Both the position numbers and the translations under genes were made by a program. From Bdellovibrio sp. (GTDB lineage: Bacteria; Bdellovibrionota; Bacteriovoracia; Bacteriovoracales; Bacteriovoracaceae): a stretch of 64,000 nucleotides of DNA. Of the stretch, positions 18,087-36,134 are shown one piece after another (within the stretch, counting starts at the first letter, position 1; every line of letters starts with the position of its first letter). Where the stretch lies: contig JACPIU010000026.1 of NCBI GenBank assembly GCA_016187935.1, positions 186,001 through 250,000 of the forward strand. The letters run 5' to 3'. Under the pieces are notes generated by a model, which was not told the DNA's origin, made no database searches, and was given only the letters and a program-made list of their open reading frames with translations.

Positions 18087-18099
18087 CTAACAAGATGGT

Positions 18100-18651
18100 A
18101 TGAATATGTTCTTAATGATTATTTTCACCCTCTCGGCATTTTTAGCGGTTGGCGGTGCGCTGTCGGTGGCCTTTGCGAAAAACCTAATTCATGCCTGCGT
18201 TTATCTATTATTTTCTTTAATCGGTGTCGCAGGTCTCTATTTAACTTTGGGCGCTGAATTCGTGGCTGCAACTCAGCTAGTGGTTTATGTTGGCGGCGTT
18301 GTTGTTCTCTTGCTTTTTGCGATTATGTTAACTGGAGGGTCCAATCTTCATCATGTGACAAGTCGTTTTGGACTTGAATCCACACCCCTTATGGGGAACT
18401 TGCGAACCTATATTATGGGTATTGTGACGGCCCTATTGTTAATAGCTGTCCTGTGCAATGTCTTGCAGGGTTCAATTTCAGCATCTGCTGTTGTTGAGAG
18501 TAAATTTTCTTCGACGGTTGAACAGATAGGAGTCAAGCTTGTAACAGATCATATTCTTGCTTTTGAAATTTCCTCAGTTCTACTTTTGGGTGCTCTCGTT
18601 GGTGCAGCTATAATTGCACGGCCCTATAGATCTTCTGAAACGGAGAATTGA
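18100..18651 (+). CDS. nuoJ: NADH-quinone oxidoreductase subunit J
   Basis: This five-helix membrane subunit packs against NuoA, NuoH and NuoK. The third helix carries the pi-bulge region with the family motif TQLVVYVGGVVVLLLFAIMLT. KNLIHACVYLLFSLIGVAGLY corresponds to helix 2, and the last helix reads ISSVLLLGALVGAAIIAR. At 183 residues it is of ordinary length. The next gene starts two bases after its stop. Confidence 0.95.
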   Translation: MNMFLMIIFTLSAFLAVGGALSVAFAKNLIHACVYLLFSLIGVAGLYLTLGAEFVAATQLVVYVGGVVVLLLFAIMLTGGSNLHHVTSRFGLESTPLMGNLRTYIMGIVTALLLIAVLCNVLQGSISASAVVESKFSSTVEQIGVKLVTDHILAFEISSVLLLGALVGAAIIARPYRSSETEN

Positions 18652-18652
18652 C

Positions 18653-18955
18653 ATGGGTATTATTCCCTACATTGTTGTTTCAAGTATTTTGTTCATTTGT
18701 GGAATCATCGTGATGATTGCCAGGAAAAACATTATAGCAATCTTACTTGGCATTGAACTTGTTTTGAATGCAGCGGCATTGAATTTTGTGGCCTTCACTA
18801 AGTTTAACAATATGAATATCGACGGGCATGTTTTTGCACTGTTTATTATATTGGTTGCTGCAGCGGAAGCTGCGGTTGGATTGGCAATTGTGATTAGATT
18901 TTTCCAAGTGAGAGAAAGTATTCACATTGATAGTGCCACACAGCTACAAAGTTAA
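18653..18955 (+). CDS. nuoK: NADH-quinone oxidoreductase subunit K
   Basis: NuoK is a three-helix, MrpC-like subunit that relays protons through two buried glutamates. Both are visible: LLGIELVLNAAALNFVAF carries the Glu36 equivalent, and ILVAAAEAAVGLAIVI the Glu72 equivalent. I chose the ATG at 18653 (MGIIPYIVV), giving 100 residues, the normal size. An earlier in-frame start would extend into nuoJ. The gene is closely spaced with nuoJ and nuoL. Confidence 0.96.
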   Translation: MGIIPYIVVSSILFICGIIVMIARKNIIAILLGIELVLNAAALNFVAFTKFNNMNIDGHVFALFIILVAAAEAAVGLAIVIRFFQVRESIHIDSATQLQS

Positions 18956-18970
18956 GAAAGGTAGATAAAC

Positions 18971-21157
18971 ATGGAATACTCTATTTCAACGATTCTTCCA
19001 ATAATGTTGTTGCCGTTTTTTGCTTTTGTGCTTAATGCATTTATCGTAAAGAAATTTACAAAAACTGCTGTTGCAATTAGTTGCGTTGCGATTTTTATCC
19101 CATTTATTATGGCGATGAGGATTTTCATCGACTTCGTCTTTAATAAATATTCTTCCGATTACTATATTCATAAAACTTTCACTTGGTTTGATTTGTCCGC
19201 TGGTGCTCAAATTTTTAAAGTCCAGATGGGTATCTATCTCGACAATATGTCTGCAGTCATGCTGCTAATGGTAACTGGAGTGGCTTTTTTGATACACCTT
19301 TTTAGCACCTACTATATGCATGATGATCCACGCTATGGGAGATTTTTTGTTTATCTTTCACTTTTTACGTCCGCGATGCTCGGTTTGGTACTTTCAGACA
19401 ACCTCTTTTCCGTATTTATCTTTTGGGAACTCATGGGCTTTTGCTCATATAGCCTGATTGGTTTTTATTACGAGAAAGAAGGTGCTGGTAATGCCTCACT
19501 AAAAGCATTCATGACAACTCGGGTGGGAGATGTATTTTTCTTGCTTGGCATAGTTGCTCTTTGGACCACAATTGGTAGTGTTTCGTATGTCGAAATTTAC
19601 AAGGCCATCGCTGAGAGTTCATTGAGTAGTCCCGTTATCCTTTTTGGTCTTGGTATTCCCTTGGCCACTTTTGCTGGGTTCTGTATTTTTATGGGAACAA
19701 TTGGCAAGTCAGCTCAATTTCCGCTACAGGTTTGGTTGCCAGATGCCATGTTCGGCCCGACTCCGTGCTCGGCACTAATTCATGCTGCTACGATGGTTGC
19801 CGCTGGCGTTTATCTTTCTCTGCGAATGTATCCCTTGATGGATGCAGGAGGCTTGCTTGAATTCATAGCTTATATAGGTGGGATTACCGCCCTGGGTGCG
19901 GCCACAATTGCTTTAGTTCAAACTGATATAAAAGCTGTGTTGGCCTATTCGACAATTTCACAATTAGGCTACATGGTGCTTGGCATCGGTGTTGGTGCTT
20001 ATAGCGCATCACTTATGCACTTAATAACTCATGCCGTCTTTAAGGCTTGTCTGTTCCTATCCGCCGGTTCAGTGATTCATGCGCTCCATGATCATCATAC
20101 TCATGCTCCAGTACAAGAAATGCCTCGAATGGGTGGATTAAGAAAAAAACTTCCATATACTTTTATAGCAATGCTCTTTTGCACGCTTGCCATTTCAGGT
20201 ATTCCTCTCTTCTCAGCTTTTGTTAGTAAGGACCGTATTCTCGGTGATGCTCTGGTTATGGCCGCTCACTCACCAATATATATTGTCCCTGCGATTTTAG
20301 GATTTTGTGGAGCTTTTTTAACTCCATTTTATATGTTTCGAATGATCTTCTTAACTTTTTACGGTGAGCCTCGCGATCAAGAGCTTTATAAGCATGCCCA
20401 TGATGAACATTTTTCCTATAACCGCAACTTGCCTTTGTTAATTTTGGCGGTATTTACCCTTGGATTCTGGTATTCAGGATCTCTTACAGGTCAGGGAATA
20501 GTGAAGGTATTTCCTGAATCGAAATATGAATGGTTCCAGGTTTTAGTTGAAAAGCCGGTTCTAAATAAGTTTTTAGGAAGAACAGCTACGCCACTTGAAG
20601 TTTCAGAGAGTAAAGAATTTATTGAGCACTCACATTATGATCCCAACCATGGAATCGCCTCTGAAGAAGAAGCTCATCATGTGCATCTGATTCATCGCTT
20701 TGGAGCAGCCGCTTCGTTTTTGATCGCACTTTGTGGGATTTTGCTTGCATACTCCATGTACATCACAAGGAAATTTTCGCCAGAATGGTGGACTACGACA
20801 TTTGCGCAATGGACGAAAGCTCTTAAGAATCGCTATTACTTTGATCACCTCTACATCGATATTTTAATTCAGAAATTACTTCATCCCTTTAATAATTTAC
20901 TCGCATGGATAGATATGGGATTTTATGATCGCTATGCAGTGGACGGTTGGGAAAGAGTGCTGGCACTTTCTTATAGCGTGGCACGTTGGTTTGATAATAT
21001 CGTCATAGATTCAGTTCTTGTGGATGGTTCAGGGATATCGGTAAGATTTTTTAATATAGTATTAAGAACGATTCAAAATGGGAAAATTCAATTTTATTTT
21101 CTCGTATTGCTGTTTGTGTTGGCAAGCTATGTACTTGCCTTCAAACCAGTGATTTAG
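18971..21157 (+). CDS. nuoL: NADH-quinone oxidoreductase subunit L
   Basis: NuoL is the distal antiporter-like proton-pump subunit. The 728-residue protein has the Glu of FWELMGFCSYSLIG, the Lys of IGKSAQFPLQVWLPDAMFGP, the His-bearing TPCSALIHAATMVAAGVYL, and the DIKAVLAYSTISQLGYM broken helix. The downstream FSAFVSKDRILG region follows. A long C-terminal extension of about 200 residues includes a His-rich loop and the region expected to form the lateral helix and final anchor helix. It is complete and apparently functional. Confidence 0.97.
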   Translation: MEYSISTILPIMLLPFFAFVLNAFIVKKFTKTAVAISCVAIFIPFIMAMRIFIDFVFNKYSSDYYIHKTFTWFDLSAGAQIFKVQMGIYLDNMSAVMLLMVTGVAFLIHLFSTYYMHDDPRYGRFFVYLSLFTSAMLGLVLSDNLFSVFIFWELMGFCSYSLIGFYYEKEGAGNASLKAFMTTRVGDVFFLLGIVALWTTIGSVSYVEIYKAIAESSLSSPVILFGLGIPLATFAGFCIFMGTIGKSAQFPLQVWLPDAMFGPTPCSALIHAATMVAAGVYLSLRMYPLMDAGGLLEFIAYIGGITALGAATIALVQTDIKAVLAYSTISQLGYMVLGIGVGAYSASLMHLITHAVFKACLFLSAGSVIHALHDHHTHAPVQEMPRMGGLRKKLPYTFIAMLFCTLAISGIPLFSAFVSKDRILGDALVMAAHSPIYIVPAILGFCGAFLTPFYMFRMIFLTFYGEPRDQELYKHAHDEHFSYNRNLPLLILAVFTLGFWYSGSLTGQGIVKVFPESKYEWFQVLVEKPVLNKFLGRTATPLEVSESKEFIEHSHYDPNHGIASEEEAHHVHLIHRFGAAASFLIALCGILLAYSMYITRKFSPEWWTTTFAQWTKALKNRYYFDHLYIDILIQKLLHPFNNLLAWIDMGFYDRYAVDGWERVLALSYSVARWFDNIVIDSVLVDGSGISVRFFNIVLRTIQNGKIQFYFLVLLFVLASYVLAFKPVI

Positions 21158-21181
21158 TTTTTTGAATAAGGAGAACTAGTC

Positions 21182-22708
21182 GTGCAGCACCTCTTGAATT
21201 GGATTTTGTGGACCCCAGCACTTGGTATTATTGGGACATTGCTTATTCCGGGTAAGGCCCATAACACAATTCGTATTTGGAGTCTTTTAGTCACTGCGAT
21301 TACTTTCGCTATGACCATCTTGCTTTACTGTCAATTCGATCAAGCAGCGCCAGGAATGCAAGAATACTTCAATATTAAATTTCCTTGGATAGAACAATTT
21401 CATATTTATTACTCATTAGGAGTTGATGGCATTTCTCTTCCGATGGTTCTTCTAACTGGGCTTTTATTTTTTCTATGTATTCTCAGTTCCTGGACAATTG
21501 AGAAATCAGTAAAAAGTTATTTTGCCTTGTTTCTTATGCTTGAAGCCAGTGTTTTTGGTGTTTTCTTGGCACTGGATTTTTTCCTATTTTATGTCTTCTG
21601 GGAAGTTATGTTGATTCCGATGTTTTTTCTGATAGGAATTTGGGGTGGCGAGAATCGTGAATATGCCGCTGTTAAATTTTTCCTTTATACATTTGCAGGC
21701 TCTGTTCTCATGTTGGTGGGTTTGATTGCCTTATACTTTCAATCCGGTGCGAATAGTGAATCGTTTAATATTCTTGCACTTCAAGGTGGAAAGTTTGGTG
21801 ACGAAGTCGTGACCCTTTTTGGTACTGATTGGAATTTTGGAATACTTGTTTTCATCGGAATGTTTATCGCCTTTGCGATCAAGGTTCCCATTTTTCCATT
21901 CCACACCTGGTTGCCACATGCCCATGTGCAGGCACCAACTGCTGTTTCTGTCATTCTGGCCGGGGTTTTACTGAAGATGGGAACGTATGGCTTTTTGAGA
22001 ATTGCATTTCCGATTCTCCCCGAAGCCGCGGTATATTTTCGGGATTGGATTGCATGGCTCGGCCTCATCAATGTGATCTATGGTGCACTCTGTGCTATGG
22101 CACAAAGTGATATGAAAAAGTTGATAGCATATTCTTCTGTCTCACATATGGGGTTTGTTATGTTGGGACTTGCCGCTATGACTACTCAAGGTACTAACGG
22201 TGCTGTACTGCAGATGTTTAATCATGGAACCTCGACCTCTATGATGTTTTTGATGGTAGGCGTATTATATGAGCGATCACATCATCGTTGGATTGTTCGT
22301 CCTGATGGTACTAAGGGGTTTGGTGGCCTTTATACAAAGCTTCCGATTTATTCCATAGTCTTTATCATTTCTATGTTTGCCTCGATGGGATTGCCAGGTT
22401 TGTCAGGGTTTATTTCAGAGGCCCTTATCTTTTTGGGAATCTATAAAGAATTCACAACTATTACGGTGCTAGCTTTGATTGGACTATTAGTCGGTGCTGC
22501 CTATTTATTATGGATGTTTAAGCGAATGTTTTTTGGTGAAGTTATTCCATCAGTAGCTGGATACCATGATATGAATGCCCGTGAAATTCTTTATATGGCC
22601 CCATTGTGTATCACTGTTATTCTGCTTGGCGTTTACCCTGCGCCTATATTGAATATTATGAAGGAATCCGTGGGATCATTGGTGCAATTGTTGGCAAAAT
22701 TTCAATAG
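21182..22708 (+). CDS. nuoM: NADH-quinone oxidoreductase subunit M
   Basis: This is the middle antiporter-like subunit of the membrane arm. Key features are the Glu in VFWEVMLIPMFFLIG, the Lys in AFAIKVPIFPFHTWLPHAH, the second Lys in AGVLLKMGTYG, and SDMKKLIAYSSVSHMGFVMLG. Its length of 508 residues is normal. The start is GTG at 21182 after aaggagaa, in good Shine-Dalgarno position. nuoN begins 18 bp after the stop. Confidence 0.97.
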   Translation: MQHLLNWILWTPALGIIGTLLIPGKAHNTIRIWSLLVTAITFAMTILLYCQFDQAAPGMQEYFNIKFPWIEQFHIYYSLGVDGISLPMVLLTGLLFFLCILSSWTIEKSVKSYFALFLMLEASVFGVFLALDFFLFYVFWEVMLIPMFFLIGIWGGENREYAAVKFFLYTFAGSVLMLVGLIALYFQSGANSESFNILALQGGKFGDEVVTLFGTDWNFGILVFIGMFIAFAIKVPIFPFHTWLPHAHVQAPTAVSVILAGVLLKMGTYGFLRIAFPILPEAAVYFRDWIAWLGLINVIYGALCAMAQSDMKKLIAYSSVSHMGFVMLGLAAMTTQGTNGAVLQMFNHGTSTSMMFLMVGVLYERSHHRWIVRPDGTKGFGGLYTKLPIYSIVFIISMFASMGLPGLSGFISEALIFLGIYKEFTTITVLALIGLLVGAAYLLWMFKRMFFGEVIPSVAGYHDMNAREILYMAPLCITVILLGVYPAPILNIMKESVGSLVQLLAKFQ

Positions 22709-22726
22709 CATTTAAAGAGTGGATAT

Positions 22727-24205
22727 ATGGAACTTAGTCTGAATTATCTTTATAGCATTACGTTTTACATTCCTGAATGTATCGCAGTTCTCGTGATGGC
22801 AGGGATTTTGTTCCTTGAGATAGCGTATAAGAAACATGATTCGAAACGCATACTGTTGAAGGTATTTACGATCGTAGGTTTAATTGTAACGTTTGGCGCT
22901 TTAGTATTTAATCTGGATTTGCCTTCAAAGAACATTTTTTATGATGCGATTGTTATAGATCGCTTTAGTGTGCTAGTGAAAATTATCGCTGTAATTGCAG
23001 CATTAATTTCATATTGGTATGGATTAAGCTCGCGAGATATTTATGATTCTTTAAAATCTGAATTCGGGATACTGATTGTTGGGGGATTAATTGGCACCAT
23101 GCTTTTAGCTAGTGCAAATAATATGCTCACTCTTTACCTTGGAATTGAGATGTTATCGATACTTTCCTACCCTCTTGCCGCTATGAAGCGTTTAGATGAA
23201 AAGTCTGTTGAAGCAGGACTTAAATATGCACTCTATGGTGGTCTTTCTGCGGGAATTATGTTGTTCGGCATGAGTTTGATATTTGGGATACTTGGGACAA
23301 TTCAGTTTGGAGAAATTGCTGGGAGAATTACGACCCTTGACGTAACTCAAAAAGCAATTCTTGTCCCTGCATTTCTTTTTTTCTTTGTCGGGCTCGGTTA
23401 CAAAATTTCATGCGTTCCTTTTCACATGTGGACCCCAGACGTATATGAGGGTTCACCAATTCCTGTTACCGCGTTTTTCTCAGTTGTTCCAAAAATTGGT
23501 GGTATTGCGGCATTGGTTCGAGTTACATCTGCCTTTTTTGTTAACGAAAATCTAATTCAATATTCGTGGGTTGCTGTTTTGACGTTAGTGGCAGCCCTTA
23601 CAATGACAGTTGGCAATGTCTCGGCGCTAGGGCAACGTTCGGTGAAAAGGATGCTGGCATATTCTTCTATCGCGCAGATCGGAAATATATTGCTAGGAGT
23701 TCTTGTTCTTGATTCGATCGGACAGCAAGCGATTATTTTTTATTTCTTTGGATATATGATCATGACACTTTTGGCATTTGGTATTACTGCAGTTTTGTCT
23801 GATCAGTATGGAAATGATTATTTTGATCGGTTTAACGGGCTTATCTACCGAAACCCATTTATGGCGATTTGCCTTATCATCGCAATGCTATCTTTGGCCG
23901 GTATGCCACCACTAATTGGATTTGTTGCTAAATTTAACATTATTGCTGCTATCGTCAAAAAAGGCCTATTTGGTCTTGCTATCATTGCTGTACTAAATTC
24001 CGTGATATCTTTGTATTACTATATGCGCCTGGCGCGGTTGGTTGTGTTTAAAATGCCTGATTCCACTGAAAAATTATTTCGTCTTAGCATTGGACGACAA
24101 GCACTTTTTGTTTCGATGGCACTTTTCATTTTAATCGTCGGTATTTTTTGGGAAGATTTATACAAATTTTCAGATGTTACAAACCAAATAAAACTGGCCC
24201 ACTGA
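22727..24205 (+). CDS. nuoN: NADH-quinone oxidoreductase subunit N
   Basis: This is the antiporter-like subunit closest to NuoK. It shows LYLGIEMLSILSYPLAAMKR (conserved Glu), VEAGLKYALYGGLSAGIML (Lys), GLGYKISCVPFHMWTPDVYEGSP (Lys), SVKRMLAYSSIAQIGN, and AGMPPLIGFVAKFNI with the distal Lys. At 492 residues it is complete. The next gene begins one base after its stop, so the canonical nuo membrane genes and the unusual block that follows are probably co-transcribed. Confidence 0.97.
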   Translation: MELSLNYLYSITFYIPECIAVLVMAGILFLEIAYKKHDSKRILLKVFTIVGLIVTFGALVFNLDLPSKNIFYDAIVIDRFSVLVKIIAVIAALISYWYGLSSRDIYDSLKSEFGILIVGGLIGTMLLASANNMLTLYLGIEMLSILSYPLAAMKRLDEKSVEAGLKYALYGGLSAGIMLFGMSLIFGILGTIQFGEIAGRITTLDVTQKAILVPAFLFFFVGLGYKISCVPFHMWTPDVYEGSPIPVTAFFSVVPKIGGIAALVRVTSAFFVNENLIQYSWVAVLTLVAALTMTVGNVSALGQRSVKRMLAYSSIAQIGNILLGVLVLDSIGQQAIIFYFFGYMIMTLLAFGITAVLSDQYGNDYFDRFNGLIYRNPFMAICLIIAMLSLAGMPPLIGFVAKFNIIAAIVKKGLFGLAIIAVLNSVISLYYYMRLARLVVFKMPDSTEKLFRLSIGRQALFVSMALFILIVGIFWEDLYKFSDVTNQIKLAH

Positions 24206-24206
24206 A

Positions 24207-24491
24207 TTGGCAATTAATTCACCGATTTTTTTATTTGTACTTGTTGCCGGGTTGTTTGCAATCCCCATAATGTCATCTCTTAAGAGAACTTCAAGAAGTT
24301 ATCGTGAGGCAAATGATGCAGATAGAGTTAACAGCAATCTATATTTTGCGTATCTAAGATATTTTTCGTGGTTGTTGTTTCTATTTTCGATCTATTTTCT
24401 AGCTACACCAATCAACGTAATGGATAAAGGCAGCCGACAGATACTCTTTGGTTTTACAGTTATAATATTATTATTATTAGGTAAGAAGTAA
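24207..24491 (+). CDS. NuoA-like membrane protein, degenerate (paralogue set)
   Basis: This is an unrecognised 94-residue protein with three membrane helices (about 8-24, 47-66, 77-91). By hand alignment it matches NuoA. NLYFAYLRYFSWLLFLFSIYFLATPINV lines up with NFNVRFYVVALVFIIFDVESALMFPVV, sharing the Asn, the Arg-aromatic pair and a Pro, but the NuoA acidic residues of IFDVE are replaced by neutral ones (SIYFL). The loop Cys-Gly-Glu motif is absent. A TTG start one base after the nuoN stop keeps the first helix, while the first ATG would remove it. The stop overlaps the next start (TAATG). It is first in a run of seven genes repeating the order A-H-J-K-L-M-N. Homology is plausible but unproven. 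Confidence 0.55.
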   Translation: MAINSPIFLFVLVAGLFAIPIMSSLKRTSRSYREANDADRVNSNLYFAYLRYFSWLLFLFSIYFLATPINVMDKGSRQILFGFTVIILLLLGKK

Positions 24492-25408
24492 TGTTAGGAA
24501 ATTTGCTTTTGTTCACACTCCTGTTTTGCGCTTTGCTATATGTCTGGTATTTCCTTTCATTGATCAGATCTAATGGTGCATTTAAAATGTATCGACATGT
24601 TTCTTTTTTTGCCATCATCAGCAAAGAGTATGAAGCAAACTTAATTAGCGCGAGTGCCAAAATATTTTTCTTTGCTCTTAAGCTTATTTTACTTTTTGTA
24701 ATAATCGGAAGTTTAGATTTTTTCTCATTCTCGGAAAATCGAGTTTTTTTCACCGGATACAGTGGAGCACAAGTTAAATATGAGAGTCTATTCTATGGTC
24801 TTTTTGTCTGGGAAATTTTGCGCTTACTAGAAAATTTTTTTGAAAATGCCGGAAAAATTGAAACTATCTTTCAAAAATCAACGCGATCGATTTTTTTTCT
24901 GCTCTTCTTTTTTTCATTTTCAAATTATTATCAAACACCGTTTAGCGACTATCTTGTCTTGCGTCAGCAAGAGACGATTTTTTGGGGGATTAAAAATCTG
25001 GGATGTATAAGTCACATTTTCTTTTTCCTACTTTTTTTATTTTATATTGCACATGATTTAAGTCGATTAGGAAGTAATGTCATCCAAAGTAAAATTGGCC
25101 TTTTAAGTGGAGTGTTTAGGTTTGTGGAAATATTTCTTCTACAGTTGTTTCTAATCTATGCTTTTTTAGGTTGGACTTCCCAAATACCATTTACTGAAAT
25201 CCTTACGGATAAATTTCCTGATAGTAGAGGAGTTTTTGAAGTTTTATCTCTGTTTGTGAAACTGATTTGTGTCCATTTCTGTGGAGTAATTGTCGGCAAG
25301 TATTTTGGCAATGTCGAATCAATATACATACGCGGTATTGAAAAATATTTGCATATATTGTCAGGACTAAACGTAATATTTTTGATTGGTTTGCAATTAT
25401 GGTCATAA
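24491..25408 (+). CDS. NuoH-like eight-TM membrane protein, degenerate
   Basis: This 305-residue integral membrane protein has about eight helices, like NuoH. The last third aligns best by eye: LSGVFRFVEIFLLQLFLIYAFLGW with ALSEYIEVFVLCAIAAALFLGG, then EVLSLFVKLICVHFCGVIVG with LQLAVFFTKSFFLYYVVIWI (shared Lys), then VESIYIRGIEKYLHILSGLNV with MRVDHLMILCWKYLTPIALLNL. The signatures that make NuoH work are gone, namely ERK, GPNRVG and the acidic quinone loop ETNRAPFDIPEAESE, so quinone chemistry is unlikely. It overlaps its neighbours on both sides. The fold relationship is inferred from topology, order and this alignment. Confidence 0.55.
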   Translation: MLGNLLLFTLLFCALLYVWYFLSLIRSNGAFKMYRHVSFFAIISKEYEANLISASAKIFFFALKLILLFVIIGSLDFFSFSENRVFFTGYSGAQVKYESLFYGLFVWEILRLLENFFENAGKIETIFQKSTRSIFFLLFFFSFSNYYQTPFSDYLVLRQQETIFWGIKNLGCISHIFFFLLFLFYIAHDLSRLGSNVIQSKIGLLSGVFRFVEIFLLQLFLIYAFLGWTSQIPFTEILTDKFPDSRGVFEVLSLFVKLICVHFCGVIVGKYFGNVESIYIRGIEKYLHILSGLNVIFLIGLQLWS

Positions 25409-25827
25409 ATATTGTTGAGGTTATTTTGTTATTGATTGTATTGGCGATGCTTTTGCCATTGAAGCTATCTCTAATGAAAATATTTGTTGAACTTTTTCTA
25501 ATCATCCTGACGTTTGCTTTCGTTAGTCAGAACTTTGAAATAGGTACAGTTTTCTTGTGCCTGATAATGTTAGGAAATCTCTTTTTTGTTAAAAGTCTTG
25601 CGTCGAAAGAAAATGAGGAGTTGCTAGTTCATTCCGAAGATATTGTGGTGAAGTTCTCATACGTTCTTATATTAATAGCATTTATAGTGACATTCTCTTT
25701 TTATTGGTTCAAAGAAGATCTATTTCCAATTAGAGATCGACAGAATCCGCTGGCCATCAATTCGATAGGGTTATTTGTCATTATTTTTATCTTAATGAAC
25801 GTGAGCCAAAAAGAGACGAATAAATGA
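25399..25827 (+). CDS. NuoJ-like five-TM membrane protein, degenerate
   Basis: This 142-residue protein has five predicted helices (about 4-21, 26-46, 52-67, 87-108, 119-135), the NuoJ count. By eye, KLSLMKIFVELFLIILTFAFVSQNF aligns with KNLIHACVYLLFSLIGVAGLYLTLG, and the following FEIGTVFLCLIMLGNLFFVKSLA with AEFVAATQLVVYVGGVVVLLLFAIML. The glycines of the NuoJ pi-bulge helix are mostly lost. The last helix (AINSIGLFVIIFILMNV) matches EISSVLLLGALVGAAI in position. It overlaps the NuoH-like gene by 10 bp and the next gene by an ATGA. Alone it would be unclassifiable, and the placement in a mirrored gene order carries most of the weight. Confidence 0.5.
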   Translation: MVINIVEVILLLIVLAMLLPLKLSLMKIFVELFLIILTFAFVSQNFEIGTVFLCLIMLGNLFFVKSLASKENEELLVHSEDIVVKFSYVLILIAFIVTFSFYWFKEDLFPIRDRQNPLAINSIGLFVIIFILMNVSQKETNK

Positions 25828-26057
25828 AGGTCGTATTGATTCCTTTTTTGATTTTTATCATCTCACTCAGTGGGCTGGTGCTCAATCCAAGAAACAATCC
25901 GCTATTGCGCATATTGGTAATATGCTCGAGTATAATTTTTCTTATAATGCGTTTTGGTGATAGCGGAATTAATGGGATGCTTTTGCTAATATTTCTAACT
26001 ATCAGTGCATTTATTGGAACATATTATTATGTATTGATTGAGAAGAAGAGGTCGTAG
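25824..26057 (+). CDS. NuoK-like three-TM membrane protein lacking the proton-relay glutamates
   Basis: This 77-residue protein has three helices. It aligns end to end with NuoK of the same window: IPFLIFIISLSGLVLNPRNN with IPYIVVSSILFICGIIVMIARKN, PLLRILVICSSIIFLI with IIAILLGIELVLNAAAL, and INGMLLLIFLTISAFIG with IDGHVFALFIILVAAAEAAVG. Both NuoK glutamates fall on non-acidic residues (Ser, and Ser/Ala). The shared IP start, the Arg-Asn turn, the I(N/D)G before helix 3 and the Ile/Val-Gly in helix 3 make this one of the more persuasive pairs. It overlaps both neighbours (ATGA upstream, TAGTG downstream). Confidence 0.58.
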   Translation: MKVVLIPFLIFIISLSGLVLNPRNNPLLRILVICSSIIFLIMRFGDSGINGMLLLIFLTISAFIGTYYYVLIEKKRS

Positions 26058-27283
26058 TGTTGTTGTTGCTTGAATTATTTATTCCTATAGTGCTTCTTTG
26101 CATCGCATACTTTCGTAATAGAATTATGATGAATCCTTCTGGGGATAGATATCTTCTAGCTTTGGTTTATTGTGTACAAATTGTTGCATTGTTTTTTACA
26201 CTTCGAGTTGAGTATGACGTCGTAAGCGCAATGAATCAAAGTAGTTTTGCTTTTTTCTATCGGCATCATATTACGATTCTTATCTGTTTTTTTCATATTT
26301 TCTTTGCTTTAGATTTTGCTAAAAAAATTATATCAATGAAGACCCTGTACGCACTTTCAATGATGCTTTCATTTTTTGCACCGTCAGATATTCTGATACT
26401 AGGAAGCGTTTTTATTTTTAGTATCCTTTTTATTTTAGTAATGTCTAAAGGAACATCAGCACAACCTAAAATAGGTTTTCTTCTTACCATTTTTGCATGT
26501 CTTTTATTGCAAACTCAATTAAAGTATAAGGTTCTAGCTGATCTCGTGGGTGTTGAAGTATTTATTGCACTTCTCTTTCTGTTATTTTCGATATTTACCA
26601 ATAAGAATGAGGAGAATACTCTCTTGTGGGCCTTATTTTTAATTATAATTTGCAGGTTCATGATGCCAGTAAATTCCTATTTGGGGGCAGCAATTTGCAT
26701 TCCATTTGTTATTTATTATCTTGTTAAAATTTTTGCCAATGGTCTCCTAGATGAAAGGAAATCTACAGCGGATTTATTTTTTGTGCTGGTTCCATTTGAC
26801 TTATTGCTTGGTCATACATTGTATTTTGTACAAACGTTGTTCGTTTTAGTTATCTATAAATCATTCCAAATGTTTAAGTTTGATTCGCGCTTCAATGCGA
26901 TTAAATCATCCCTGTTCTGCGCACTTGCCTGTGTTGTTTTAGCGATTGGAGAGGAACTTATTGATGTCAAAATTCTTTCAATTCTTGTTTTCTTGTTAAA
27001 AATGTCTATCATCTTATATTTTTTGCTATCAGAACGTCGTCAATCGAAAATTGAGCACGCAGGAGTAGATCAACAATTCGTTTTTATACTTGTAATACCA
27101 TCATTGTTTTTTTTATTCCAATATGGAATTATTTCGTTTAATCCCATTTTTGCAAGTCTCGTGATCGTCGCTTTCTTAACTAAGATTATTTTGCTTTATT
27201 ATCCGGAATTATGGGAAAAACTTAATTTGACTCACATTAAAAGGTTTAAATTGTATATGAAATTAAGGCTTGAGGGTAAATGA
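26057..27283 (+). CDS. NuoL-like polytopic membrane protein, shortened and degenerate
   Basis: This 408-residue protein has about 12 membrane helices. Two spans resemble antiporter-like subunits. APSDILILGSVFIFSILFIL aligns with LSDNLFSVFIFWELMGFCS but has no Glu. CRFMMPVNSYL aligns with KSAQFPLQVWL of the broken-helix region, keeping the Pro and final Leu, with Cys at the Lys position. The PDAMFGPTP loop is deleted, and the 300-residue C-terminal lateral-helix region of NuoL is missing. The start is GTG, overlapping the previous stop. The protein could be a structural relic, or a repurposed scaffold that no longer moves protons. Individual homology is weak and order supports it. Confidence 0.48.
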   Translation: MLLLLELFIPIVLLCIAYFRNRIMMNPSGDRYLLALVYCVQIVALFFTLRVEYDVVSAMNQSSFAFFYRHHITILICFFHIFFALDFAKKIISMKTLYALSMMLSFFAPSDILILGSVFIFSILFILVMSKGTSAQPKIGFLLTIFACLLLQTQLKYKVLADLVGVEVFIALLFLLFSIFTNKNEENTLLWALFLIIICRFMMPVNSYLGAAICIPFVIYYLVKIFANGLLDERKSTADLFFVLVPFDLLLGHTLYFVQTLFVLVIYKSFQMFKFDSRFNAIKSSLFCALACVVLAIGEELIDVKILSILVFLLKMSIILYFLLSERRQSKIEHAGVDQQFVFILVIPSLFFLFQYGIISFNPIFASLVIVAFLTKIILLYYPELWEKLNLTHIKRFKLYMKLRLEGK

Positions 27284-28284
27284 GCAATCGAGAATCACCA
27301 AAATTGTTCTCTTTATTGAGTGGAGAGATACAGAATAGTATTCTCTTGAATTTTAGAAAATATTTTATTTTATTTTTTTCAATTGCTCTAATGGCTTTGT
27401 TTCATTTCGGTGCCAATCACTTTAGAGCACCCTTTTATGTTTCAGTGAACCCAGAGTTAATCTGTACTTTCTTATCCCTGGTCATTTGTTCATCATTTGC
27501 TCTGGTGACTCAAAATAAATATTTTTATGAAAAGGCCATTTTGCTCTCTTTTGCATTCCTGGCAGTATTTATCGACCCCAAATTTGCACCATTTGCATTG
27601 GAATGCTTATACACGCTCTGGCTAATATCGAATTTTGCAAACAGTAGCATCTATTTAAGATTGTTTAATTTTATAATCTCAATTTTGTTAATGACAAGCG
27701 TATTACTCAATAGCACTTTCCATTTTTATGATTCCTTTTTGCAAAAGATGATTATCATCTGTTCTTTCTTGAGATATGCATTTGTAAATTATAAGTATTT
27801 CAACGACTCAAGTTCCATTGGATTTGAGGATGTTGTGTTTTCAGCCTTATCCCTCCTTCTTATTTCAAAAACTACAGTAATCACGTCTAGCGTGATTACT
27901 GTAGTTTTTATACCGATATTACTTATCGCTTATATCACCAAGCGCCCACAGCAAAAATTTGGTGCCGCACTGGTATGGCAATATTTTATTCTTACAACCT
28001 CAGGAATAATTCAAGCAATTGCGATACCAATGTATTTAGTTGGTTTAAGGCAAATTATAGGGACATCACAGAAGCACTATCCAAGTCATACGGCAATAAT
28101 GGCCTATGCTTTTGTTCTTATGCTTTTTTTGATAAAGGGTTTTACTCAACAGACGTTTCCATTCGAAATTATAGATTTTTTTGCTTTGCATTGGATTTTC
28201 TGGAATGCTTTTTTTGTAAGGATTTTATATAGGGAATTTTTACATATAACACTAATAATTTTTATTATTTATTTGTTTTATTAG
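27280..28284 (+). CDS. NuoM-like polytopic membrane protein, degenerate
   Basis: This 334-residue membrane protein has roughly nine or ten helices. AILLSFAFLAVFIDPKFAPF followed by ALECLYTLWLI aligns with ALFLMLEASVFGVFLALDFF and YVFWEVMLIPMFFLI of NuoM. The key Glu coincides with the Glu of ALECLY. Further on, SFLRYAFVNYKYF parallels FAIKVPIFPFHTW with Arg at the Lys position, and a Lys (LLLISKTTV) lies near the NuoM LLK. So this member may keep more charged channel residues than its L- and K-like neighbours. It overlaps the L-like gene (ATGA). The coding sequence contains an exact 19-bp inverted repeat (27867-27909). Confidence 0.48.
   Translation: MSNRESPKLFSLLSGEIQNSILLNFRKYFILFFSIALMALFHFGANHFRAPFYVSVNPELICTFLSLVICSSFALVTQNKYFYEKAILLSFAFLAVFIDPKFAPFALECLYTLWLISNFANSSIYLRLFNFIISILLMTSVLLNSTFHFYDSFLQKMIIICSFLRYAFVNYKYFNDSSSIGFEDVVFSALSLLLISKTTVITSSVITVVFIPILLIAYITKRPQQKFGAALVWQYFILTTSGIIQAIAIPMYLVGLRQIIGTSQKHYPSHTAIMAYAFVLMLFLIKGFTQQTFPFEIIDFFALHWIFWNAFFVRILYREFLHITLIIFIIYLFY
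27867..27909 (+). repeat. Perfect 19-bp inverted repeat inside the NuoM-like gene
   Basis: Arms at 27867-27885 and 27891-27909 are exact reverse complements (from aaaaactacagtaatcacg) around a 5-nt loop (tctag). RNA from either strand would form a very stable hairpin ending in a short U-run. The hairpin encodes the repetitive peptide KTTVITSSVITVVF. It could act as an internal attenuator, an RNase-protection hairpin, or the scar of a small mobile palindrome. Confidence 0.8.
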
Positions 28285-28293
28285 AGAAACTAG

Positions 28294-29478
28294 ATGCAAG
28301 TTTTAGCTGCCAAATATGGTTTATTTTTTCCACTGATTTTGCTGGTGATTTCTAAACAAATTACTTTTTCAAAATCAGTGATGATAGCACTTAATTCTTT
28401 TGTATTAATAATTTTTATCGCGATTTTTGTCTTCGCGAAGCAAAAGTTTTTTTACACTTTAGGAATTGAACAAAATATTTTTTTTATTTACATGATTATA
28501 TTGGCCAGCTTTGTTGCGATTTCTGTTTCCCAGGAAAAACACGAATTATTAGGTTTTTACTCTTGCACCTTTTTGATTGCGGCCTTTTTTGTGAATGATG
28601 TAACTATCGTCTTTCCATTGGTTAGGATGTTTATCGATTATATTCTTTTTCAACATGAAAAAATTGATATCAGAAGAGCAAATATGTTCCTATATCGATT
28701 CATGGCGAGCATATGTGAAATTGCGCTGCTATATCTCGTAACCAATTTTGAATTTGCTCCGAAGGCAGCTCAAATTCTTTCCTTGGCAATCTTTTTCATG
28801 TTTGTTTTTCAAATGATGCTGGCATATTTTTTCGAAAAATGTTTTCATGAAACTTTTACTCCAATAAGGATAGCTGGAAATTTTGTGAATTATTTCTTGT
28901 ATCCAGGCTGGGCATTAATGATTATGAGGCAAGTGAAGTGTGCCGAAACATTGACGTCGCTTTCCGTTCTTGTTCTTATTCTGGCGGTGTTTGTGATCGT
29001 GCTCGATGTATATTTTGGCAAAAAAACATTATATGCTCTATTAGTAGTAAACATTCTGATATTCTTTTGCCCGATAAGGGGCAACGAATATATCTTTTAT
29101 AAGCTTTCATCCTATTCATTCATGATCGGGCTATTTTTGATTTGGACTGAAGGAGCTCTTTCGATGTCCACTCCTGTTTCGCGGACTGCAAGTTTTCTAA
29201 GATATATTTTTGCTTTATTAATAGCATTGCCAATTTTGGGGAACGGAAATTTGACAAAGTTTATTATATTGCTCAAGTTACATAGCGAGCACCTAGTAAT
29301 TTACTTGGTTATTCTCGCGTGTTTCATGGCCCTCCAGGCCTTTTATCGTTCAGATACTTTGAAACCGCGTGCAAAAGGATTAATCAAAAATTTCCAGCCG
29401 TTTTGGATTATAATTGTTACTAATATACTAGTAATAATTGCGCTGAATTTGTCGTTACTCGTTAATGCAAAAATTTAG
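28294..29478 (+). CDS. NuoN-like polytopic membrane protein, degenerate
   Basis: This 394-residue protein has about 12 helices. The best segment lies near the C-terminus: RTASFLRYIFALLIALPILGN, then GNLTKFIILLKL, aligns with NPFMAICLIIAMLSLAGMPP and LIGFVAKFNIIAAI of NuoN, including the shared Lys-Phe at the distal-lysine position. The trailing LVIYLVILACFMALQAFYRS parallels LAIIAVLNSVISLYYYMRL. Earlier, IVFPLVRMFIDYILF sits where NuoN has LYLGIEMLSILSYPL, with Arg replacing the conserved Glu. There is a 9-bp gap from the M-like gene, the only non-overlap in the set. Its 3' end overlaps the GYF/TPR gene by 14 bp, tying that protein to the membrane module. Confidence 0.52.
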   Translation: MQVLAAKYGLFFPLILLVISKQITFSKSVMIALNSFVLIIFIAIFVFAKQKFFYTLGIEQNIFFIYMIILASFVAISVSQEKHELLGFYSCTFLIAAFFVNDVTIVFPLVRMFIDYILFQHEKIDIRRANMFLYRFMASICEIALLYLVTNFEFAPKAAQILSLAIFFMFVFQMMLAYFFEKCFHETFTPIRIAGNFVNYFLYPGWALMIMRQVKCAETLTSLSVLVLILAVFVIVLDVYFGKKTLYALLVVNILIFFCPIRGNEYIFYKLSSYSFMIGLFLIWTEGALSMSTPVSRTASFLRYIFALLIALPILGNGNLTKFIILLKLHSEHLVIYLVILACFMALQAFYRSDTLKPRAKGLIKNFQPFWIIIVTNILVIIALNLSLLVNAKI

Positions 29479-32400
29479 AGTCAAAGTAAATAATTCACGT
29501 GTTGTAGGTCCGTTCTCAAAAGAGCAGATCGCAGAACTATTTTTAAAAAAGCACATTAAATCAGAAGATCTATGTCAGATCTTTCCAACAGGGGAATGGC
29601 TCCCACTTCGAGCGCATCGTGATCTTTGTGATTTCATAGAATCAGCAAAGAAAAATCCATTATTGATCAAACATGAGGGCGATTCAAAAACCGTAGTTAA
29701 TTTAGCGGCCAGAAAAGTCTCGCGCCCGCCCGAAGCAAAGCAAGAAAAAACGCAAGATGAGATAGTGATAGAAAAGACTCCAAATAAAGCAATCAGTGTA
29801 GAGGATCTGGAAGTACTTGATCCTGACGTCAAGAATGAAGGATTTGAAGAATTTAAATTTGAAAAGAAAACACAAAAATTTTCTATTTCGGAGGCAATGA
29901 AAAAAGAAGAAGCAACTGAGCAAGCAATAAATCCTGGAGTAGGATTAGATAAAACAATTATAGCAAAAGGTCAAAAAAAAGAAGCTAATCTAGATAAAAC
30001 CATAGTACGTCCAGAAAACTTGGCAAGAAAATTACAAGAGCAGGCAGCTCAAAAAGAGGCCGCAACAAAGACTGAGCAGGAAAATCCTGAAAAGGCAGAG
30101 TCAACCAATTTGCCAACAATTGCCACCGAAAAGGAAATAGATATTTATGCCGAGGCAACATCAGTTTCAAACGTTTCAGATTATCTTGAAGAGCTAAAGA
30201 AAAATATAGTGCAGACAGAACAAGATTTTGCGCAGGAGCAACAACGGCTTATTGATGAGGTGAACAAGGACACCAGCGAAGAGAAACTTGAAACTGAATC
30301 TGAAAACAAAGAGCTGCCCAAGCAGAAGAAGGCCATGAAGCCTGTAATCGCTCTAGTATTTATCGTACTCATCTATTTCCTTTTTTTTGAAGAAGAAGAA
30401 CAGAGCAAAAGCTATGAACCGCTCGCAATTAAGATTACATTTCCGGTAGTCTTGGAAGTTGAAAATGACCTTGTATCGACTGAAGAAATGGAAAAAGGGA
30501 AAGCTTTTGCGACACAAAATAGCTACATGGCAAAAATAAATGCTATCAACCACCTTCAGTTATCACTCGCCAATAAATTCAAGGATAATCCATCTTTTGG
30601 ATTATTATTGCTCTTGTATGCAGAGTTGCTGCCCAATGCTGGGAATCAGCAGGAAGCCTTAAAGACAATATATAGAATGTTAAAAATTGTAAGCGCTCGC
30701 ACACTCGCGGATGTGAATATGGCGCTAGGTGCCGCCCTGTATTATTATCATCAGGGACGGTACAAAACTGCAAAAAATACCATAGAAAATTTTCGTCGAG
30801 TGACCAAAGGACTTACGCCTAAATTTCTGGCGATATGGATGGAAATATGCATTAAGGCAGGGGATTTTGTTACTGCAAAAGAACTTCTTGATAAGCTCAG
30901 TTCTGTAAAGCCAAAAACGCTTGATATATACCTTGCTTTGTCTCACTTCTATCAACAGGATTCTCAGCCAGAAAAGGCCTTAGAAATTTTACAGGAAGGC
31001 AGCAAAGTTCATAAAGGTTCTGTTGCACTTTTATTAGAGTATGCGAAATTAAAACTGGAGGCCGGCGATTTTAAACAGTTTTCCGCTGCCCTTAGAACGA
31101 TTAATGATTTAAAAGCAGAGTACAGTCCCGTCTATTTTTCAAAATATATGGAGTATATGGGAATTCTGAATGCCAAACAAGGTAAAATGGAGGAAGCAAC
31201 TAAATACTTTAAATTGGCCCTGAAAGTAATGGACACTGAAGAATTAAGATCCAAACTTGCCTCGTTAGAGGTTGGTGGTACCAGTTCTGTGCAGAGTTTA
31301 ATTTTAGAAAGCAAAATTTTGTTTCTTATGAACAAGGCCAAATTTGAGATAGAGAAAAAAAATTGGGATCAGGCAATGGCCTACGCAATTTCTGCATCTG
31401 ATCTATCCGAGACATACCTACCATCGAAACTCTTATTAGCAGAAATTCAAATTCAGAGAGGATATTTCGATTTTGCTTTAAAAAAATTGCTTGATCTCCA
31501 AAAGATCGCGCCGATGAATACGAAAGTAAACCATCTGCTTCTCTATGCATATATCGAGTCATTTAAAATTGATGATGCGCAAAAGGAAATCCAGCAAATG
31601 CTACGGACTCCGTTTTCCAAAACGTACGAATATGCATCGCTGTTAGGACTTTTCTATAAGAAACAGAACAACACGCCACTCGCAATTAGATGGTATCAAG
31701 AAAGCATTAATAGAAATCCCTTAAACGACAAAGACTATTTTCATCTTGCAGAAATTTTGGTTTATATGAAAAAGTTTAAGGATGGTTCACGGATGCTGGC
31801 AGAGTCATTAGCTTTGGATCCTGATAATGTCGATTATGTGGCTTTGAATGCTGAAATTCTATATGAAGAAAAGGGAGCAGATACAGCAATAGGATATCTT
31901 CGTGAGCAATTAGAGAAGCATCTGGAAGATCCCAAACTAATTGGAGAAATCGCAAAGTATTATTATAGATCAGGGCAGACAAAATTTTTTGATCAATACA
32001 AAGAGAAAATGGAATCGCTTGTAAATAAAGATGCAGGATTCTATTTGTTTTTAATTGATGCTTCTCGTAAGGAAGATAAATTTGAGGAAGTTGTTGCCTA
32101 TAGTAAGGAACTTCTTAAAATTGATCCAGGAAATTTAGCAACACGCATGCAGCTATCTGAATTTTTCCTGGATAATGGTAAGACAGAAGATGCGCTGAGA
32201 GAATTTGAACAAGTCAATGCGCGTCTTCCTTCTTATCCAAAAGTGCACTACTACTTGGCAAAAGTATATATTCTTATGAAAAATTTGGAAAAAGCACAAC
32301 AAAATGCCGAGGAGGAAATCAAAAACAATCCAAACTTAGAATTTGGGTATTCTATTTTGGGACAAATTTATAGAGAGAAAAATGATTGGCCTAATGCTAT

Positions 32401-32689
32401 AAAAAATTATGAAGCTGCTGTAACTAAAAATGGTAAATCAGTAGAGGCAATGGCAGGAATGGCCTGGATAAAAGACAAACAAAACAACCACTCTGTTGCA
32501 AGAGAGCTATATATGCGTGCCATTAAAGAAGAGCCGGGGAATGCAAAACTTCACAAGGAATTAGCATTTGTATATAAGAATATGGGCCAAAGTGGATTGG
32601 CCGTTGAATCATTTCAGGTGTACTTAAGCTTAGTACCAAATGCTACCGATAGATCAAACATTGAAGCCGAGATAAAAAATTTACAGTAG
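29465..32689 (+). CDS. GYF-domain / single-TM / multi-TPR protein
   Basis: This 1074-residue protein is built in three parts. A GYF_2-type domain (about residues 3-58, with VVGPFSKEQIAELF and GEWLPLRAH) is cytoplasmic. A long charged, low-complexity linker (about 60-288) contains the repeated motif LDKTII / LDKTIV (162-166, 177-181) and a related SKTVV (74-78), which resemble phospho-Thr sites recognised by FHA domains. One membrane helix (about 292-308) leads into some 750 residues of TPR repeats, presumably periplasmic. Such an architecture suits an envelope-spanning scaffold. GYF-bearing envelope proteins are known from gliding machineries such as Myxococcus GltJ, but I see no direct orthology. 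It overlaps the NuoN-like gene, so it is probably made together with that module. Confidence 0.72.
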   Translation: MQKFRVKVNNSRVVGPFSKEQIAELFLKKHIKSEDLCQIFPTGEWLPLRAHRDLCDFIESAKKNPLLIKHEGDSKTVVNLAARKVSRPPEAKQEKTQDEIVIEKTPNKAISVEDLEVLDPDVKNEGFEEFKFEKKTQKFSISEAMKKEEATEQAINPGVGLDKTIIAKGQKKEANLDKTIVRPENLARKLQEQAAQKEAATKTEQENPEKAESTNLPTIATEKEIDIYAEATSVSNVSDYLEELKKNIVQTEQDFAQEQQRLIDEVNKDTSEEKLETESENKELPKQKKAMKPVIALVFIVLIYFLFFEEEEQSKSYEPLAIKITFPVVLEVENDLVSTEEMEKGKAFATQNSYMAKINAINHLQLSLANKFKDNPSFGLLLLLYAELLPNAGNQQEALKTIYRMLKIVSARTLADVNMALGAALYYYHQGRYKTAKNTIENFRRVTKGLTPKFLAIWMEICIKAGDFVTAKELLDKLSSVKPKTLDIYLALSHFYQQDSQPEKALEILQEGSKVHKGSVALLLEYAKLKLEAGDFKQFSAALRTINDLKAEYSPVYFSKYMEYMGILNAKQGKMEEATKYFKLALKVMDTEELRSKLASLEVGGTSSVQSLILESKILFLMNKAKFEIEKKNWDQAMAYAISASDLSETYLPSKLLLAEIQIQRGYFDFALKKLLDLQKIAPMNTKVNHLLLYAYIESFKIDDAQKEIQQMLRTPFSKTYEYASLLGLFYKKQNNTPLAIRWYQESINRNPLNDKDYFHLAEILVYMKKFKDGSRMLAESLALDPDNVDYVALNAEILYEEKGADTAIGYLREQLEKHLEDPKLIGEIAKYYYRSGQTKFFDQYKEKMESLVNKDAGFYLFLIDASRKEDKFEEVVAYSKELLKIDPGNLATRMQLSEFFLDNGKTEDALREFEQVNARLPSYPKVHYYLAKVYILMKNLEKAQQNAEEEIKNNPNLEFGYSILGQIYREKNDWPNAIKNYEAAVTKNGKSVEAMAGMAWIKDKQNNHSVARELYMRAIKEEPGNAKLHKELAFVYKNMGQSGLAVESFQVYLSLVPNATDRSNIEAEIKNLQ

Positions 32690-32697: not shown

Positions 32698-33978
32698 ATG
32701 CACGATATTAATTATTTTCATGAAAACACTATTGCCGTAAAACAAAATCTTGGGAAAAGAAAAATTAGTGCATCTATTGTTGATGAATGTCTCGTTGTTA
32801 ATTCAAAACGAAAAGAACTCACGCTTTTCGTTGAAACTACCCGGGCTGAGATTAATCATTTAAGTAAGCAGGTCGGAGAATTAAAGAAAAACAAGCAGGA
32901 TGCAGATGTTCAAATTCAAAAAGTTGGACAACTCAAGTCCCTTATTGCGGAAAAGGAAAAAGAACTGGAAGCTACCCAAAGTGACCTAAATTTGCGTTTG
33001 GCCGCAATTCCTAATCTTCTCGATGATGTTGTACCTGCAGGTGAAAGCGAGAAAGATAATATAGAGATTTTTCAAAAAGGAAGTCCAAAGCAATTTTCTT
33101 TCAAAGTTAAAGACCATGTCGCCCTCGGCGAATCTCTTGGTATGCTGGATTTTGAAGCAGCTTCAAAAATGTCAGGTTCACGTTTCGTGGTTTATAAAAG
33201 TCAATTTGCTCAATTGGAGCGAGCACTCATTAATTTGATGATTGAGGAACATACTAAGGCCGGATATGAAGAAATAATTCCACCATACATTGTTAACAGC
33301 AATTCCTTATTTGGGACAGGGCAGTTGCCTAAATTTAAGGAAGATTTGTTTCGATTAGATCTTCCCGATCGCGATTGGTTTCTGATTCCGACGGCCGAAG
33401 TACCTGTCACCAATCTCAAGCGGGAGCAATTGTTTAATGGCAGTGAATTACCATTAAAATATGTGTCTTATACTCCGTGCTTTAGAAGTGAAGCTGGTTC
33501 CTATGGTAAAGACACGCGTGGTCTTATCCGGTTGCATCAGTTTAATAAGGTTGAACTAGTAAACATTGTTGCTTGCGATAAGTCTGAAGAGGCACACCAA
33601 GAAATGATCAAACGCGCCTGCTCCATTCTCGATCTGTTGGAGCTTCCCTATAGGGCCATTCTTCTTTGTGGTGCTGACATCGGTTTTTCTGCGCGTAAGT
33701 GTGTCGATCTGGAAGTATGGTTACCATCGCAAAATGTTTACCGCGAAATCTCATCTATTTCCAATTGCTGGGATTTTCAGGCGAGGCGTGCCAGCATAAG
33801 ATATCGCGACGCGCAAGGCAAACCTGTCTTTGCCCATACTTTGAATGGATCCGGTTTGGCCGTAGGCAGGGCCTTGGTGGCCGTAGTTGAGAATAACCAA
33901 AATGAAGATGGGTCCATTACAATTCCGAAAATATTACGTCCTCTAATGGGGGGGCGGGAACGGATCGCCAAAATTTAA
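32698..33978 (+). CDS. serS: Seryl-tRNA synthetase
   Basis: SerS charges tRNA-Ser. The N-terminal coiled-coil arm that grips the long variable arm is clear (about residues 30-110, RAEINHLSKQVGELKKNKQD). The class II catalytic core follows: motif 2 is TPCFRSEAGSYGKDTRGLIRLHQFNKVELV, and motif 3 is the GSGLAVGRALVAVVENNQ region. TAEVPVTNL forms part of the serine-binding TxE loop. At 426 residues it is full length. It lies 8 bp after the GYF/TPR gene, so it may be part of the same transcript. Three tRNA-Ser genes follow directly, an apt neighbourhood. Confidence 0.97.
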   Translation: MHDINYFHENTIAVKQNLGKRKISASIVDECLVVNSKRKELTLFVETTRAEINHLSKQVGELKKNKQDADVQIQKVGQLKSLIAEKEKELEATQSDLNLRLAAIPNLLDDVVPAGESEKDNIEIFQKGSPKQFSFKVKDHVALGESLGMLDFEAASKMSGSRFVVYKSQFAQLERALINLMIEEHTKAGYEEIIPPYIVNSNSLFGTGQLPKFKEDLFRLDLPDRDWFLIPTAEVPVTNLKREQLFNGSELPLKYVSYTPCFRSEAGSYGKDTRGLIRLHQFNKVELVNIVACDKSEEAHQEMIKRACSILDLLELPYRAILLCGADIGFSARKCVDLEVWLPSQNVYREISSISNCWDFQARRASIRYRDAQGKPVFAHTLNGSGLAVGRALVAVVENNQNEDGSITIPKILRPLMGGRERIAKI

Positions 33979-36036: not shown

Positions 36037-36126
36037 GGAGAGATGCCAGAGTGGTCGAATGGGCCGGTTTCGAAAGCCGGTGTGGGGTTTACTCTACCTA
36101 GGGTTCGAATCCCTATCTCTCCGCCA
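36037..36126 (+). tRNA. tRNA-Ser (anticodon CGA)
   Basis: Type II tRNA: acceptor ggagaga / tctctcc, anticodon stem-loop ccggtttcgaaagccgg with anticodon CGA (reads UCG), long variable arm tgtggggtttactctacct, T-loop ggttcgaatcc, encoded CCA at 36124-36126. Its 3' end is the integration site of the 7.6 kb element downstream and stays intact on the left side. Confidence 0.95.
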
Positions 36127-36129
36127 TTT
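36110..36129 (+). repeat. attL core of the integrated element
   Basis: This 20-bp sequence covers the T-stem end, acceptor strand and CCA of tRNA-Ser(CGA) plus three Ts, and is repeated exactly at 43680-43699. The bases before the two copies differ (tRNA T-loop here, unrelated there). Confidence 0.88.
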
Positions 36130-36134
36130 CATTT

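Follow-up and report, generated by a model that had tools for sequence, protein, structure and literature searches.

A probable second complex I membrane arm, degenerate and apparently kept under purifying selection, in Bacteriovoracaceae

Seven overlapping or abutting plus-strand open reading frames (ORFs) at positions 24207–29478 of a 64,000-nucleotide stretch of a Bdellovibrio sp. genome (GCA_016187935.1, contig JACPIU010000026.1, positions 186,001 to 250,000; hereafter the window) very probably represent, by descent, a second membrane arm of complex I. They start without a gap directly after a canonical nuoN, the last gene of a nuoA,H,J,K,L,M,N set (arm 1) assigned as canonical by NCBIfam, and are referred to here as arm 2 (dA, dH, dJ, dK, dL, dM, and dN; Table 1); for arm 2 we document from which lineage it descends, which genes partner it, what it has lost and kept, where it persists, and with what it co-occurs. 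An earlier reading made from the letters of the window (the sequence-only reading) had placed an overlapping operon of seven membrane proteins at precisely these coordinates and had proposed a degenerate complex I arm in A-H-J-K-L-M-N order, a proposal borne out by intact and intermediate relatives that occupy the same slot.

None of the seven proteins gave a match above cut-off in Pfam or NCBIfam, and in the window genus the subunits are cut to about 60–80% of the length of complex I subunits. As a search of the family with dN reached the sister species only, positional homologues were gathered by synteny, i.e., the region 3′ of nuoN was fetched and its ORFs were read in about 65 genomes. The closest relatives belong to the Bacteriovoracaceae/Halobacteriovoraceae (Bdellovibrionota) and include the congener GWA2_49_15 as well as Bacteriovorax sp., Halobacteriovorax marinus, and B. 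stolpii; g-, G-, L-, and C-numbers denote the genera, genomes, loci, and contigs of the comparison. In the interval between nuoN and a GYF/TPR gene, 38 complete loci (the window and 37 others) have exactly seven ORFs, whose sizes follow the same order, and 14 complete loci (genera g2, g4, g7, g24, g32, g46, and g47) have none. In g15 the block consists of plain NuoA,H,J,K,L,M,N (blastp, E 1e-12 to 1e-108), as does its visible part in g28 and g31, and recognisable copies share 35–39% identity with arm 1 in NuoH, 34–41% in NuoL, and about 35% in NuoM. Intermediate blocks were found in g21, g40, g33, and g9, and those of most other genera are unrecognisable; altogether, a recognisable second nuo arm is present in 3–4 genera and an unrecognisable seven-ORF block in about 30. 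The slot contents form a graded series from intact through intermediate to unrecognisable, and the gene order is not due to chance, since the 37 other loci repeat it and the intact versions are nuoA to nuoN by blastp. The slot of g5 (loci L053, L059, L069, and L230) contains five small genes, which are A-, H-, J-, and K-like, with one protein of 212–214 amino acids (aa) replacing L, M, and N.

When profiles of the window genus were compared with those of other genera, the best-scoring partner was the one in the matching position for A (76%), H (97%), J (73%), K (24%), and N (weakly). When the whole degenerate family was compared with canonical and recognisable copies, the positional partner was best for A, H, J, K, and N (69–95% for J, 39–86% for K, and 62–98% for N against NuoN), and the best match of L and M was not the positional partner. 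Iterated hidden Markov models (HMMs) built from intact copies recruited, outside the L/M/N group, almost only proteins of the same position, and among the window proteins they reached dH only (E 1.9e-6 before inclusion). The AlphaFold2 model of dH, whose input alignment contained recognisable NuoH relatives, had a pLDDT of 85 and a pTM of 0.84; the PDB matches listed at its top were complex I subunit H/ND1/NdhA (probability 1.00, TM up to 0.63, best E 0.0065), and one formate hydrogenlyase homologue stood near the end of the list. In dN, MAFFT puts GNLTKFIILLKL against the lysine of NuoN transmembrane helix (TM) 12, exactly as the hand alignment of the sequence-only reading had done. Both dL and dM are assigned by position, size, and topology. 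Thus, series and position assign all seven membrane subunits to complex I, and profiles or fold do so within the window genus for A, H, and J and, weakly, for K and N.

Arm 1 and arm 2 are placed in different complex I lineages by the NuoM and NuoL trees, in which arm 1 groups with planctomycete complex I (in NuoM also with acidobacterial complex I) and intact arm 2 with the 14-subunit types of C32 and Oligoflexia. A constraint forcing both arms into one clade was rejected (p-AU 8e-4 for NuoM and 1e-5 for NuoL, in trees with thin outgroup sampling and a long arm 2 stem), which contradicts the tandem duplication of arm 1 put forward by the sequence-only reading. The second NuoD (NuoD2) is closer to the 14-subunit C32 copy (49% identity) than to arm 1 NuoD (39%).

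Arm 2 is also predicted to have a peripheral arm of its own elsewhere in the genome (in the window genome B, CD, and I), which the sequence-only reading, restricted to the window, had missed together with the loss of the NADH module and the survival of arm 2 without arm 1. In genomes with intact arm 2, the second NuoD is part of a NuoCD fusion encoded in the cluster lipoprotein-nuoB-nuoCD-nuoE-nuoF-nuoG-nuoI (g15, g31); in g28 this cluster is cut by the contig end, with at least E present. The NuoEFG genes were lost from the cluster of g21 and are decayed in g6, g27, and g44; in g6 (L246, G005) the NADH module stands at an intermediate stage, with E, F, and G all present but heavily decayed (PF01512, E 9e-8). 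In the corresponding P2 cluster of the window genome (contig C14; Table 1), nuoE, nuoF, and nuoG are absent, and Pfam recognised the Q-module subunits B, C, D, and I at the level of the genes: nuoB2 by Oxidored_q6 (3.7e-19), nuoCD2 by Complex1_49kDa (1e-34) and Complex1_30kDa, and nuoI2 by Fer4. Most of the family has the lipoprotein of this cluster, which hardly occurs in other groups. The lipoprotein-nuoCD2-nuoI2 genes are kept in g47 and g24 (L239, L240) though the TPR slot lacks arm 2, and a protein of 358–368 aa with a few TM helices, which follows these genes, recurs in g5, g10, g19, g24, and g47.

Residues of the proton channels and the quinone site follow the same gradient. Intact arm 2 (g15, and g28 and g31 where visible) keeps the Glu/Lys residues of NuoL/M/N, Glu36 and Glu72 of NuoK, the DxE motif of NuoA, and the acidic residues of NuoH; some of these are gone in g21, and in the window genus, where the alignment of L and M is uncertain, essentially all channel residues of L, M, N, K, A, and H are gone save possibly the NuoN TM12 lysine. 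Key NuoA and NuoK acids are kept in 0% of the decayed copies. The quinone-site histidine of NuoCD2 is kept in 5/5 intact copies and lost from 25/25 decayed ones, and in the window genome it is replaced by Asn and the quinone-site Tyr by His. Taking as reference the residues invariant in intact copies, and with p-values that treat sequences as independent, decayed NuoD keeps 13% of the quinone-site H/H/Y vs. 63% of ordinary invariants (p 1.6e-18), decayed NuoI 87% of its eight iron–sulfur (Fe-S) cysteines vs. 30% of other invariants (p 2.5e-41), and decayed NuoB 57% of the N2 cysteines vs. 46% of other invariants. In the window genome all Fe-S ligands are in place (4/4 Cys in NuoB, 8/8 in NuoI). 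To judge from these residues, quinone-site catalysis would have been dropped selectively and the NuoI Fe-S ligands kept selectively.

The state of arm 2 is associated with that of Na+-NQR, an enzyme reported earlier in Bacteriovorax marinus (PMC4014512). Its subunit NqrA is absent from 6/6 genomes with an intact second complex I (five of them at least 90% complete), in which NuoEFG and the catalytic residues are present, and it occurs in all 44 genomes (≥ 90% complete) with a decayed or absent arm 2 and no other complete nuo operon (Fisher p 5e-7, genomes being counted without phylogenetic correction). NQR is lacking in 12 of the 15 genomes that have another complete nuo operon, a label given by hand from contig neighbours. 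An economical reading would be that NQR or another nuo operon took over the function and that catalysis was lost afterwards.

Further nuo loci accompany the two arms. The partner genes of arm 1, nuoB-C-D-I, lie on C15 without EFG, so that arm 1 would seem to be of the 11-subunit type; at this locus (G000:C15:106500-124500, L115) they are preceded by a gene of 320–360 aa that is conserved in g1, g3, g15, and g46. A third nuo operon, which comprises membrane as well as peripheral genes (among them B-C-D-E-F-G-I), was found at G000:C32:116000-135900 (L101), and its presence goes with the absence of NQR in g1, g24, g20, g25, g29, and g4. In the congener (L112, G023:C31) an extra nuoB-nuoCD-nuoI trio is 80–90% identical to the C32 copies, with the rest of the operon missing, and may be a further peripheral arm that is parting from its enzyme.

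Arm 2 is apparently kept under purifying selection. The frames are open in every arm 2 block, and the ratio of nonsynonymous to synonymous substitution rates (dN/dS) is mostly 0.03–0.25 in the closest pairs and not near 1, e.g., 0.03–0.20 among decayed pairs of g5 (G070-G087) and g18 and mostly 0.1–0.3 in g1 and g3, the values for arm 1 NuoN being 0.03–0.11. Subunits differ in tempo: identity in g3 pairs is 33–53% for L, M, and N vs. 64–74% for A, H, J, and K, whereas in the intact g15 L, M, and N do not change faster than the others. Congeners of g8 share 20–29% identity in arm 2 and 83% in arm 1 NuoN. In at least nine genomes without arm 1 (G011, G022, G009, G037, G015, G084, G059, G017, and G036), mfd is directly followed by the seven-gene arm 2, and several of the genomes without arm 1 also hold the lipoprotein-CD2-I2 cluster; since arm 2 survives without arm 1, it is not merely an accessory of it.

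These observations would fit the following course of events. The ancestral arm 2 enzyme would have been an NADH:quinone proton pump of 13–14 subunits encoded at two loci, nuoA-H-J-K-L-M-N beside arm 1 and lipoprotein-nuoB-nuoCD-E-F-G-I elsewhere, and it may still work in a few genera. Once Na+-NQR or another complete nuo operon had taken over NADH oxidation, the NADH module would have been lost or decayed, the quinone-site histidine and proton-channel residues would have disappeared, and the antiporter subunits L/M/N would have shed most sequence constraint. Assembly would have been retained through the NuoCD fold, the Fe-S clusters of NuoI (in most genera), and a membrane set of A-H-J-K-L-M-N shape. 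The products may thus still assemble into a membrane-anchored NuoB/CD/I complex that neither pumps nor reduces quinone, held by A-H-J-K, with L-M-N vestigial and the membrane arm reduced to an anchor. Its function would sit on the NuoCD/NuoI side, as electron transfer or redox sensing via N6a/N6b or as a structural scaffold. That arm 2 belongs to a complex which derives from complex I, has been superseded as an enzyme, and keeps a function is in our judgement probable on the patterns described above; we give about even chances to the more specific proposal that complex I, shorn of its NADH, quinone, and proton sites, has become an Fe-S membrane pseudoenzyme of roughly ten subunits that plays a new role, essential or relevant to fitness, in predatory Bacteriovoracaceae and has outlived the working complex I in several genera.

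Several observations weigh against a retained complex of this kind. The N2 ligands are lost in many genera (g33, g19, g11, and others), and g46, g32, g2, and g4 have lost all of arm 2 and its peripheral set. In g24 and g47 the slot has no membrane arm although the peripheral cluster persists, so the membrane arm is dispensable there. The expectation of the sequence-only reading that each protein would find its positional counterpart as top match held for A, H, J, K (at 24%), and weakly N, but profile–profile comparison of the window genus with other genera gave no signal for L and M. Likewise, structure prediction agreed for dH but was poor for dL (pLDDT 54 with 28 relatives), making a fold search meaningless. 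As to the paired operons and dN/dS to which that reading had turned, the block is present in 38 loci and the ratios of the closest pairs are mostly low, but dN/dS is 0.2–0.6 in g8, g44, and g17 and reaches 0.4–0.6 in some genera (g8, g17), where constraint is weak, and dS was saturated in many comparisons.

The main rival is a relic in slow neutral decay, made redundant by the takeover of NQR or another nuo operon, not yet deleted and without present function. The very fast divergence in g8, the loss of key residues, the outright loss in several genera, and the NQR distribution all suit it; we nevertheless consider it less likely, given the seven open ORFs in the 38 complete loci and between mfd and the TPR gene where arm 1 is missing, the low dN/dS of most closest pairs, the retention of NuoI Fe-S cysteines far over background, and the survival of arm 2 where arm 1 is lost. 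Both a relic and a reused scaffold had been named by the sequence-only reading and both are carried forward here; its third suggestion, an assembly factor, belongs with the view that arm 2 is a tandem duplicate serving the arm 1 enzyme as second membrane arm, assembly factor, or dimer partner. Adjacency and a shared gene order speak for such a service, to which we assign very little probability in view of the rejected common clade, the separate peripheral set, and the genomes with arm 2 only.

If the old arm had been rebuilt into an ion channel or antiporter of the Mrp or Hyf type, this would explain why polytopic proteins persist at the L, M, and N positions, but the antiporter Glu/Lys have disappeared from the window genus and from most other genera, and these three are the fastest-changing subunits in g3, making such a conversion highly improbable. 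Hardly credible is an unrelated operon in which small hydrophobic proteins happen to stand in a nuo-like order: it accords with the lack of a family match for any of the seven but not with the intact and intermediate versions in the same slot, the H-like fold, and the profile diagonal, and for A, H, and J profiles and fold refute it.

Among known systems, arm 2 resembles the 14-subunit complex I (Nuo, with fused NuoCD) in its A-H-J-K-L-M-N order, its nuoB-CD-(E-F-G)-I partner, its NuoH fold, and the catalytic residues kept in g15/g28/g31; in the window genus it differs in lacking EFG, the quinone histidine, and the channel residues, its subunits are shortened, and its genes are split over two loci. 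The 11-subunit complex I keeps its quinone and proton sites, both of which arm 2 of the window genus has lost; it is arm 1 with its nuoB-C-D-I that looks like this type. Absence of NuoEFG, i.e., of the NADH module, is what arm 2 of the window genus has in common with the 11-subunit enzyme, known for instance from Desulfitobacterium hafniense (PMC11238625). Group 4 hydrogenases and formate hydrogenlyase, whose HycE is a NuoCD paralogue (PMC7050243), likewise combine a complex I-derived membrane anchor with a NuoCD/NuoI-like module, but arm 2 descends from Nuo through intact Nuo intermediates, and no alternative active site was identified in it. Na+-NQR shares the presumed electron task, and its presence tracks the decay of arm 2, but it is an unrelated enzyme and a probable replacement rather than a relative. 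Arm 2 is of the complex I family by descent and is not filed as complex I, because the NADH module, the quinone histidine, and the channel residues, all defining features of the working enzyme, are lost in the window genus.

Table 1. Features of the window in the order mfd, arm 1, arm 2, GYF/TPR gene, serS, and the P2 cluster on contig C14 (positions on that contig)
Feature	Position	Strand	Size	Remarks
mfd	12928..16395	-		left border of slot, divergent, upstream of arm 1
arm 1 nuoA,H,J,K,L,M,N	16549..24205	+		canonical, NCBIfam; apparently 11-subunit type; partner nuoB-C-D-I on contig C15
dA, NuoA-like small subunit	24207..24491	+	94 aa	DxE motif lost; profile, position
dH, NuoH-like	24491..25408	+	305 aa	quinone-loop and E-channel residues lost; profile, HMM, AlphaFold2 fold
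dJ, NuoJ-like	25399..25827	+	142 aa	about 5 TM; profile, position
dK, NuoK-like	25824..26057	+	77 aa	3 TM; Glu36 and Glu72 lost; weak profile, position
dL, NuoL-position polytopic protein	26057..27283	+	408 aa	channel Lys/Glu unrecognisable; position, size, topology
dM, NuoM-position polytopic protein	27280..28284	+	334 aa	position, size, topology
dN, NuoN-position polytopic protein	28294..29478	+	394 aa	profile (degenerate family); LTKFII Lys aligned to NuoN K395
GYF/TPR membrane protein	29465..32689	+	1074 aa	1 TM; always adjoins slot
serS	32698..33978	+		right border of locus
P2 lipoprotein	C14: about 141,995-143,557
P2 nuoB2	C14
P2 nuoCD2	C14: 144,130-145,776
P2 nuoI2	C14

The GYF/TPR gene is still present where arm 2 is missing and is therefore not strictly tied to it. 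Further downstream in the window, tRNA-Ser(cga) at 36037–36126 is followed by a minus-strand tyrosine integrase (36135–37367) and by genes for an HTH_17 excisionase-like and a Rep_trans replication protein; positions 36037–38848 are a small integrated element at a tRNA gene. A Fic/DOC-family protein is encoded at 34362–35417, between tRNA-Ser genes and this element.

To our knowledge, complex I is usually either present and working, or lost, and literature searches for a degenerate second complex I in Bacteriovoracaceae found no earlier description. Here, a single family shows every stage from the working enzyme to a gene set that is unrecognisable yet open, ordered, and selected in many genera. 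The series is a natural dissection of complex I, in which the NADH module, the quinone histidine, and the channel charges are the first to be lost, and the NuoI Fe-S ligands, the NuoCD fold, and the membrane topology are retained. It is also a warning that former Nuo subunits, which no family model recognises, very probably lie behind seven 'hypothetical membrane proteins' of these genomes, and it bears on whether the complex I scaffold may be useful without catalysis.

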